Source of the DNA: Methanobrevibacter sp.
GTDB lineage: Archaea > Methanobacteriota > Methanobacteria > Methanobacteriales > Methanobacteriaceae
NCBI RefSeq assembly: GCF_017410345.1
Contig: NZ_JAFQQZ010000044.1
Coordinates: 1 to 64,000, forward strand
Reading direction: 5' to 3'
Length of the DNA stretch: 64,000 bases
The notes beneath the pieces are model-generated. The model searched no databases, was not told the origin of the DNA, and was given only the letters and a program-made list of their open reading frames with translations. Position 1 is the stretch's first letter; the number at the start of each line of letters is the position of its first letter. The position numbers were made by a program, and so were the translations under genes. Below are positions 29,582 to 52,634 of the stretch, in pieces.

Positions 29582-30205
29582 ATGGCTGAAAAAAACACTT
29601 TTGAAGGTACCACCACTGTGGGAATTACCTGTGTTGACGGTGTTGTATTCGCAAGCGAAAGAAGAGCAAGTATGGGAAACCTTGTTGCTCACAAAGTAGC
29701 TGAAAAGATATTCAAAATTGACAATCACATTGCAGCAACCATTGCAGGATCTGTTGCAGGTGCACAAAGCCTAATGAAAATCATTAGCGCTGAAACCGCA
29801 TTATACAGATTAAGAAATGGCAAGGATATCAGTATCGAAGCAGCTGCAGCTGTAAGTTCTAACATATTACACTCCTCACCAGCATATGTACAAACTCTTA
29901 TCGGAGGAGTAGATGAAACCGGCGCATCAATCTATTCATTGGATGCAGCAGGTGGTATGATTAAGGATACCTTCATTTCTACCGGTTCCGGTTCTACATT
30001 TGCATATGGTGTTCTTGAAGACAGATTCCACGAAGACATCACTGTAGAGGAAGCTAAGGAATTGGCTATTAGATCCATCAAGGCTGCTACAGAAAGAGAC
30101 ACTTACTCTGGAAATGGCTTCTTAGTAGCGGAAGTTACTAAAGACGGATTTAAAATGTTAGAAAAAGAAGAAGTTGAATCTATTATTGAAAAGATCAATA
30201 AATAA
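29582..30205 (+). CDS. psmB: proteasome beta subunit
   Basis: Catalytic subunit of the archaeal 20S proteasome. A 9-residue propeptide (MAEKNTFEG) precedes the catalytic threonine of TTTVGITCVDG; counted from that Thr1 the partner residues Glu17 and Lys33 are present (FASERRAS; VAEKI), and the GSGSTFAYGVLE block is the usual second active-site loop. 207 residues, normal. The alpha subunit is not in the window. A diverged copy of its last codons lies directly after the stop. Confidence 0.96.
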   Translation: MAEKNTFEGTTTVGITCVDGVVFASERRASMGNLVAHKVAEKIFKIDNHIAATIAGSVAGAQSLMKIISAETALYRLRNGKDISIEAAAAVSSNILHSSPAYVQTLIGGVDETGASIYSLDAAGGMIKDTFISTGSGSTFAYGVLEDRFHEDITVEEAKELAIRSIKAATERDTYSGNGFLVAEVTKDGFKMLEKEEVESIIEKINK

Positions 30206-30262
30206 AAAAGATTCAATTAAAAGTTGAATCTATTGTTGAAAAATCCAATAACTAAAAAATTT
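30206..30262 (+). repeat. copy of the psmB 3' end forming a hairpin
   Basis: The last codons of psmB (from 30171) recur 50 bases later (from 30221) as about 38 matching bases with a few differences. The copy is out of frame with the gene but its own frame reads K V E S I V E K S N N stop beside the true E V E S I I E K I N K stop. GATTCAA (30210-30216) pairs with TTGAATC (30224-30230), so the junction also forms a hairpin. Confidence 0.65.
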
Positions 30263-47389: not shown

Positions 47390-47440
47390 TTAAAAAATTT
47401 TGAATAAATGTTCTCTGAATGCCTGAAAAGAACCTAAAAT
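47390..47440 (-). repeat. diverged in-frame copy of the pheA 3' end
   Basis: Starting 9 bases (three codons) after the pheA stop, the minus strand reads I L G S F Q A F R E H L F K I F stop, in frame with pheA. The true end is I L G S Y P V F S E D L F K stop: 9 of 14 residues agree. A remnant or duplicate of the gene end. Confidence 0.75.
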
Positions 47441-51077: not shown

Positions 51078-52190
51078 ATGACTCAAATTAAAAAAACTGT
51101 TAGAACAAGAGACTTCATTATAAGTACAGACGGATTATTATTCGCTTCAACAAATTACATTCACCCTGAAGACAGAATCATTTGCTTCCTAAGATACATT
51201 CCAGATGAAAACGGAGACAGGAAAAAGGATGGAATCAGATATTCAAAAGTAGGTTCAGAAGAGGCTTACGCATATTTAAGGGAAAACCATCCTGACTATC
51301 TATACTTCTGTGATGTGACAAATGTAGAGATGATGGGAGTTCCTATAGACAAGGTTGAAAGAATCATCAAGCCAGAAGAAAGATTAAAGGGTCTCAGGGC
51401 AACCTACTACGAAGAAATAAATGATAAAGTAAAAGCTGGAGAAGAATTGGATTACAAGGAAGAACTCTTGAGCAAACTCTTTGACTTATCAGACTTCTTC
51501 CATTATGTTGCAGGAATCGATTATGATGACCTTGGAATCTCAGGATCAATCTTGCCAGGACTTCAAAAGGCAGGAACTTCAGACCTTGACTTTGTAGTCT
51601 ATGGCCTTGAAAACCATAGGAATGCAATCAAAGCATACAAGGACAACAAGGACAAAGCTGTTTTCATAGAAGATATCGACAAATCAATCACACTAAATAG
51701 AATCAACGATGACTTCTGGGACTTTGTATATGATAAGAGAATCAAAGACGACTCCCTGACAAAAGAAGAGTTCGCTTGGTATGAGGAAAGAAAAAGCAAT
51801 AGAGGATTGATTAGAGAAACCCTTTTCGACATCTTGGCAACCAGAAACTATGATGAGATTGAAGGAACCTGGGGAGATACAGTATACGAACCAGAAGGAT
51901 TTGCGAAAGTTAACTGCACAATAAAAAGCGCACTTGGAGCCTTCGACAATCCTGCAGTATATACAATAGAAGATGTTGAGATTCTAGAAGGACCAGATAT
52001 CGAAATCTCAGAGCTCGCTTCACTAACACACACTTACGCTGGAGAAGTAGTGGATGGAGAGGAAGTAGTGGCAAGAGGAAAAATAGAAAAGGTCTTGAAA
52101 AACGGAGAGTTTGAGAAATATAGGATCTTGGTAGGTACTACTAGGGAATCCTTGAATGAATATATCAAACTTAGAGAGAGTCCTGTATAA
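51078..52190 (+). CDS. COG1665-type predicted nucleotidyltransferase
   Basis: Archaeal protein with a nucleotidyltransferase-like core: GSILPGLQKAGTSDLDFVVYG near residue 157 has the GS...SDLD pattern of the polymerase beta superfamily, which would hold two metal-binding aspartates. The flanking N- and C-terminal domains are not recognised. About 370 residues. The frame opens at 51069, but that GTG is the GTGAT ribosome site; ATG 51078 (MTQIKKTVRTRDF) is preferred. Substrate unknown. A copy of its last codons follows the stop. Confidence 0.8.
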   Translation: MTQIKKTVRTRDFIISTDGLLFASTNYIHPEDRIICFLRYIPDENGDRKKDGIRYSKVGSEEAYAYLRENHPDYLYFCDVTNVEMMGVPIDKVERIIKPEERLKGLRATYYEEINDKVKAGEELDYKEELLSKLFDLSDFFHYVAGIDYDDLGISGSILPGLQKAGTSDLDFVVYGLENHRNAIKAYKDNKDKAVFIEDIDKSITLNRINDDFWDFVYDKRIKDDSLTKEEFAWYEERKSNRGLIRETLFDILATRNYDEIEGTWGDTVYEPEGFAKVNCTIKSALGAFDNPAVYTIEDVEILEGPDIEISELASLTHTYAGEVVDGEEVVARGKIEKVLKNGEFEKYRILVGTTRESLNEYIKLRESPV

Positions 52191-52199
52191 ACTCATACT

Positions 52200-52223
52200 A
52201 AATTAAGAGAAAGTCCAGTTTAG
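52200..52223 (+). repeat. synonymous copy of the COG1665 gene end
   Basis: Nine bases after the stop codon and in frame, the DNA reads codons for K L R E S P V stop, exactly the last seven residues and stop of the gene, but with different codons at CTT/TTA, GAG/GAA, CCT/CCA, GTA/GTT and TAA/TAG. All differences are silent. Confidence 0.8.
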
Positions 52224-52250
52224 ACTGGATTTCTTATTTTATTTTTTTAC
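52207..52250 (+). terminator. terminator of the COG1665 gene
   Basis: Within and after the codon copy, GAAAGTCCAG and CTGGATTTC (about 52208-52233) pair with one bulge, followed by a T-rich tract. The hairpin is thus built from the copied gene end. Confidence 0.6.
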
Positions 52251-52634
52251 TTTTTTTAATAAATTTACTATTTTAAATTAATTTACCTACCTACATTTAA
52301 AACTATTTTTATAATTTCCATATATGATAAACTATTTTTAAAAAATGAATTAAAATTACCAAGTTTTAATCAACAAACCTCATTTTAATTAATCGTATTT
52401 ATAATTAAAATGTAGGAAAAATTTTTGTAAAAAATTGAACTATTTTTCAAATAAAATCAATTTTTCAAGCTAATGTAAAAATTGATTTAAAATTATTAAA
52501 TTCTAATAAAACTGCAAAATTATAATTATTTCGTAAAAATAACTATTTTTATAAAATTATAATCAAAAATAACTGCATACTATTTATTAAATGAAAAATA
52601 AAGAATAATTTAACAAATAATATGGAGTTAAAAA
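52251..52634. other. AT-rich gap before the Cas4-like gene
   Basis: About 380 bases without a coding frame or clear RNA fold; it probably holds the promoter of the Cas4-like gene. GGAG at 52624-52627 is that gene's ribosome site. Confidence 0.35.

Follow-up and report, generated by a model that had tools for sequence, protein, structure and literature searches.

According to the available part of a published study, Methanobrevibacter ruminantium carries a surplus of tandem repeats, the so-called satellites, which in this species and in M. olleyae are local direct repeats with mutually unrelated, scattered units of more than 30 nt (PMC6749651). No mention of gene ends was found in the available text on satellites (PMC6749651), and no report of duplicated gene ends was found in the open-licence literature searched. 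Archaeal terminators, in turn, generally need no hairpin, and the U-tract terminators used with aCPSF1 are characterized by a T-rich tract in the part of the work available (PMC8716108).

Here we describe a gene end that is encoded twice in 64,000 nucleotides of DNA (the window). Like the satellites known from the same clade, it consists of direct copies at a short distance, with a unit of about 30 nt or more, in a genome where the sample scanned has an excess of local repeats in non-coding DNA. In contrast to the satellites as far as they are described in the available text, it comprises two diverged copies, one of them coding, and the divergence is exclusively silent. A T-rich tract follows the downstream copy as in archaeal U-tract terminators, whereas the conserved hairpin of putative function that precedes this tract is unusual in archaea, judging from the same partial source. 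The gene end is a well-preserved case of the local repeats that are abundant between genes in this lineage.

The duplicated gene end in G000 and its relatives

The genome containing the window is referred to as G000, and other G numbers denote genomes that were compared with it. The gene concerned, labelled COG1665 in the original prediction, was taken to begin at the ATG at 51078 because its relatives begin with MDKIKKTV, and its product gave no match in Pfam, NCBIfam or PDB sequences at E ≤ 0.01. The original prediction had stated that the terminal KLRESPV and stop codon are encoded again nine bases further on, in frame and with six silent differences, and both coordinates and frame proved to be exact: the two copies differ at 6 of 24 bases, every change including that in the stop codon being silent, and they follow each other in direct orientation with a lag of 33 nt. 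Clear likeness extends over 24 of the 33 nt of the period. The 9-nt spacer matches the 3' flank at 4 of 9 positions (hand count) and is no clear copy of either flank, so that a clean tandem duplication is not visible, which counts against a local duplication.

Table 1. Positions of gene, gene-end copies and associated features (window coordinates unless a locus is named).
Feature	Position	Strand	Remarks
Protein gene (COG1665 by the first label)	51078..52190	+	ATG start at 51078
Copy 1, translated terminus KLRESPV + TAA	52167..52190	+	AAA CTT AGA GAG AGT CCT GTA TAA
Spacer between copies	52191..52199	+	9 nt
Copy 2, untranslated KLRESPV + TAG	52200..52223	+	AAA TTA AGA GAA AGT CCA GTT TAG; orthologous to single native terminus of G015, G012, G009, G010
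Terminator-like hairpin TCCAGT-TTAG-ACTGGA	52214..52229	+	5' arm inside copy 2; fold z about -3.2 to -3.5
T-rich tract 3' of hairpin	52230..52258	+	
psmB gene-end copy	30221..30255	+	lag 50, 30/35 nt; psmB end at 30205; common to G012
pheA gene-end copy	47399..47419	-	lag 54, 18/21 nt
G016 309-aa ORF between gene end and old terminator	L045:4189-5118		

An identity of only 18 of 24 bases in AT-rich sequence and an assembly of 63 contigs might suggest that the resemblance arose by chance or through faulty assembly, and the DNA-only score of the pair at 52167-52223 indeed lies below the threshold of our genome-wide scan. However, 2 of the 476 sampled G000 genes re-encode their full last seven residues and stop within 120 nt, whereas a mean of 0.05 was expected from 20 permuted pairings; one of the two is the gene studied here and the other shows a single base difference and is out of frame. 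Also, G018, another and independently assembled MAG, possesses both copies with the same lag and with substitutions of its own, which disposes of the assembly error that the original prediction had considered. We hold either source to be hardly credible; the repeat of the gene end is neither chance nor assembly error, and our conviction rests on the protein comparison and the relatives, not on the DNA score.

G000 groups with Methanobrevibacter. Among 19 genomes of the genus that were searched, 17 contained the gene and 15 a complete terminus; most of the named records for the matching loci are MAGs from rumen or gut that bear the label Methanobrevibacter. Of the 15 complete termini, 4 (G000, G018, G016 and G003) were followed by a copy at lag 33, and another 4 (G015, G012, G009 and G010) were single and ran directly into ACTGGA or CTGGA. 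Neither a lag-33 copy nor a single hairpin end was found in the remaining 7 (G008, G006, G007, G011, G013, G014 and G017), and in G011 A-rich repeats occupied the gene end. The single terminus of G015 agrees with copy 2 of G000 at 23 of 24 bases, and the next 25 bases are identical (by eye). Since the single ends of the four relatives align with the downstream copy, copy 2 is the old, native terminus, followed directly by hairpin and T-tract; the question posed in the original prediction, which terminus aligns with which, is thereby answered from the relatives.

In G016 the gene ends with ESPVHN-stop and IKLRES follows at a lag of 33 nt (6 of 18 bases differ, all silently), and in G003 ESPVKN-stop is followed at the same lag by KLRES, with 15 of 15 bases identical. 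The G003 copy includes a TCT serine codon that is private to the gene end of this genome, which points to a local origin of the copy or to conversion. According to hand counts, the spacers of G000 and G018 match at 5 of 9 bases, and the G018 spacer is like those of G016 and G003 at 10 of 15 and 11 of 15 bases, respectively.

In each of the four species with the copy the lag is divisible by three, as would be expected if readthrough of the stop codon, an alternative raised in the original prediction, led to translation of the in-frame copy as a C-terminal extension under coding selection. The extension is not conserved, however. No lag-33 copy exists in 11 of 15 termini, four of these being the single ends described above; the copy of G003 meets a TGA after KLRES and that of G016 breaks off after the same residues. 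Furthermore, G000 and G018 are unlike each other in the spacer and in the stop codon (TAA and TAG, respectively), and gene-end copies elsewhere are mostly out of frame. We therefore consider readthrough extremely improbable.

Outside the genus, in a Methanovirga MAG (L020/L069), a short tandem repeat of the gene end, TATTAAAGGATAGATAG, is located downstream of KLKDR-stop.

Hairpin and T-rich tract at the downstream copy

The region 52214-52258 displays a stable stem followed by a T-tract, the arrangement that defines the hairpin/U-tract class of terminators. Fold z values of -3.5 (52195-52250) and -3.2 (52200-52246) were obtained for the hairpin region, whereas a sequence of equal length beginning at copy 1 gave a z of +0.4 and no such fold. 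Similarly, the eight sequences that contain the downstream copy with the hairpin showed z values between -1.8 and -4.0. In their alignment, 19 of 48 columns are invariant and the hairpin is nearly so, with one mismatched stem position each in G016 and G003; this alignment is too invariant to lend covariation support, and the conservation may be due in part to descent. A 40-nt segment beginning at 52200 is 0.97 identical between G000 and G015, compared to 0.65-0.90 just beyond it. The codon CCA, which an in-gene hairpin requires, occurs in all 4 genomes that have a single copy with the hairpin and in 3 of the remaining 11, counts that ignore kinship. From these sequence features we infer that the hairpin probably acts as a terminator or 3'-end signal.

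The explanation that we prefer, and to which we give somewhat better than even chances, is an ancient local duplication after which the translated copy drifted silently and the untranslated copy kept the hairpin. In the ancestor of G000 and its near relatives, about 33 bp across the gene end would have undergone local duplication, through the process that also gave rise to the many short direct repeats in the intergenic DNA of the clade. The original end would have had two roles, its last codons AGT CCA GTT encoding protein and at the same time pairing, as 5' arm, with the bases after the stop to form a terminator-like hairpin. Following duplication, copy 1 would be bound by the protein only, so that its changes must be silent, and these would include the change from CCA to CCT that breaks the hairpin. 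Copy 2, untranslated and retaining hairpin and T-tract, would be bound by the hairpin and hence remain almost unchanged.

Replacement of the gene by a diverged allele, which the original prediction had read from the silent-only divergence, is not required under such constraints, as copy 1 is translated and copy 2 lies in a nearly invariant terminator-like hairpin. More generally, neither readthrough nor a foreign allele is needed for silent-only divergence beside a gene where protein holds one copy and a terminator-like RNA structure the other. Over the entire gene, G000 and G015 have a third-position identity of 0.68, and a special donor is therefore not required to explain silent differences in the last codons.

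Inserted genes and ancestry of the flanks

DNA that integrates at a gene's 3' end can displace the old end. Applied to the present locus, recombining or inserting DNA would have provided a new end, sometimes accompanied by a new gene, and the old terminus with its hairpin would have stayed downstream; G000 and G018 would have lost such cargo or would never have contained any. The final sequence expected from a displaced old terminus is identical to that expected from local duplication. G016 and G003 resemble 3'-end integration systems in having a new translated end, cargo and the old terminus beyond; on the other hand, neither an integrase nor an element was observed at the locus and the two ends of G000 are only 9 nt apart.

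In G016, a 309-aa orphan gene separates the translated terminus and its 33-nt copy from an old terminus with hairpin that is still recognisable, and the stop codon of the insert falls within this old terminus. The 309-aa ORF had no Pfam or NCBIfam match and, in a search of 118 other genomes, gave no clear relative and only two matches, with E of about 3e-4. The corresponding region of G003, between the terminus with its 33-nt copy and the old terminus with the ACTGGA hairpin, contains a GNAT gene and a 49-aa ORF. Inserts 3' of the gene end are present in G008 (a GNAT module as in G003) and G007 (an HxlR regulator and a PNPOx-like gene) as well. The site therefore has received new DNA repeatedly, and displacement of the old terminus, as judged from these arrangements, evidently does occur at this locus. 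A mobile cargo family as driver was rejected: relatives of the GNAT gene exist in 27 of 119 genomes searched, at the gene-end site only in G003 and G008, and the 309-aa gene is without clear relatives. At this site in L036 (G003) and L005 (G008), the GNAT acetyltransferase gene is accompanied by the 49-aa ORF facing it, and the G003 copy is interrupted.

Exchange of gene bodies between species, as displacement by recombination would entail, is indicated by G006, whose gene is like that of G008 to about position 850 and then like that of G007 (1.00 over the last 60 nt). Yet this apparent recombinant (an incomplete MAG; L007/L035; last 200 nt like G007) has no gene-end duplicate left. A mosaic boundary at the terminus itself was found in G018. 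At the level of the gene, G018 and G000 are sisters (identity 0.988), and at 52060-52119 their identity is 0.97-1.00, but at 52220-52400 it falls to 0.55-0.78, where G015, G012, G009 and G016 mostly reach 0.6-0.9, and from 53600 onward G018 is once more nearest to G000. In the right segment G018 is far from all (0.71-0.77) and groups with G003, whereas G000 is at ordinary distances (0.83-0.84 to the G015 group). This recombination breakpoint at the gene-end hairpin favours displacement and counts against local duplication. The genome that is mosaic is G018, however; discordant ancestry of gene body and right flank was looked for in G000 and not found. Allele replacement as the original prediction had formulated it is not supported for G000, which has no foreign tract at the junction and both of whose flanks are ordinarily diverged from the G015 group.

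In G018, at about 3820-5264 of L034, the intergenic region and a Cas4-like gene have been swapped for a divergent version that groups with G003.

As a rather speculative extension, which we judge improbable, a gene-end duplication may separate the coding from the terminator role and so open a slot in which new genes settle and take over the terminator. Empty slots would then be represented by G000 and G018, and filled ones by G003 and by G016, where the stop of the orphan gene lies in the old terminus. If this were true, local gene-end duplication would be a simple route for operons of this clade to gain genes.

Local repeats at gene ends and between genes

In a genome-wide scan, copies of the last 36 nt of each sampled gene were sought in the 120 nt that follow, at a score of at least 14 and with permuted controls. 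For G000 the sample comprised 476 genes with at least 40 nt downstream, taken from 683 kb of the 1.84 Mb genome. Gene-end copies were found for 9 of 476 genes in G000, 14 of 250 in G011 and 5 of 279 in G008 (permuted means 0.37, 0.20 and 0.22), so that the comparison with shuffled sequence for which the original prediction had called yielded copies far above expectation in all three Methanobrevibacter genomes. Thus, about 2-6% of the genes sampled in these genomes, all with 40 nt or more downstream, possess a local duplicate of their end, a potential source of error for annotation, for the detection of recombination and for readthrough searches. In the control genomes, 5 of 219 genes in G035 and 0 of 163 in G022 had copies (permuted means 0.00 and 0.05), and mid-gene segments gave no copies in any of the five genomes with the same scan. 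At least six of the last eight codons were re-encoded by 7 genes in G000, 8 in G011, 3 in G008, 2 in G035 and 0 in G022, as compared to an expectation of at most 0.10. Most of these protein-level copies are out of frame and several differ by 0-1 base.

Many gene-end copies are 94-100% identical to their own gene, and this near-identity does not fit the diverged alleles that displacement would leave. Likewise, no clear enrichment of copies was observed at 120-6000 nt downstream, and old termini displaced by cargo were rejected as a general cause. The repeat excess climbs from about 40 nt before the stop codon to an intergenic plateau and is nearly absent around start codons, and local repeats inside intergenic DNA are as common as at gene ends or commoner. 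A process specific to gene ends was rejected as well, the gene end being the edge of the plateau. The shared process supposed in the original prediction does act in G000 and its relatives, though not in the form of allele replacement confined to gene ends; what takes place is a local duplication of non-coding sequence, with gene ends at its edge.

Intergenic tandem arrays were also in excess over shuffles, with 105 versus 12-28 in G000, 127 versus 11-14 in G011 and 84 versus 8-18 in G008, and in the controls 6 versus 1-7 (G022) and 2 versus 0 (G035) were counted. That G035 has gene-end copies without a high tandem-repeat load counts against the local-duplication reading. Exact or near-exact gene-end copies in G035, a higher-GC relative at the level of the order, include those at L122:2231 and L119:5051.

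Because G000 lacks discordant flanks, the copy in G003 contains a private codon of that genome and local repeats form a genome-wide background, we infer local duplication as the type of event and the order of steps proposed above; displacement of the old terminus, for which the inserts in G016 and G003 speak, we regard as less likely but as a serious rival.

The original prediction had placed psmB and pheA in the same class, which applies to psmB and less so to pheA. In G000 and G012, psmB has a new end KINK-stop and a short spacer, followed by VESIVEKINS-stop in G012 that is decayed in G000. Other relatives have a single psmB terminus, and near relatives end with KINS; the downstream copy thus appears to be the native terminus, as at the main locus. 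G000 and G012 are not sisters in the tree, which means either an old duplication with losses or spread via recombination. The pheA copy is weaker and occurs only in G000 among the 16 pheA loci listed, and its changes (S to R and D to H) are not silent.

At 30205-30255 of the window, an inverted repeat, GATTCAA-TTAAAAG-TTGAATC, is made up of the psmB spacer and the start of the copy and may be a hint of template switching. In the psmB of G012 (L212/L215), the match to residues 1-58 is directly followed by that to residues 76-207, so that 17 internal residues seem to have been deleted.
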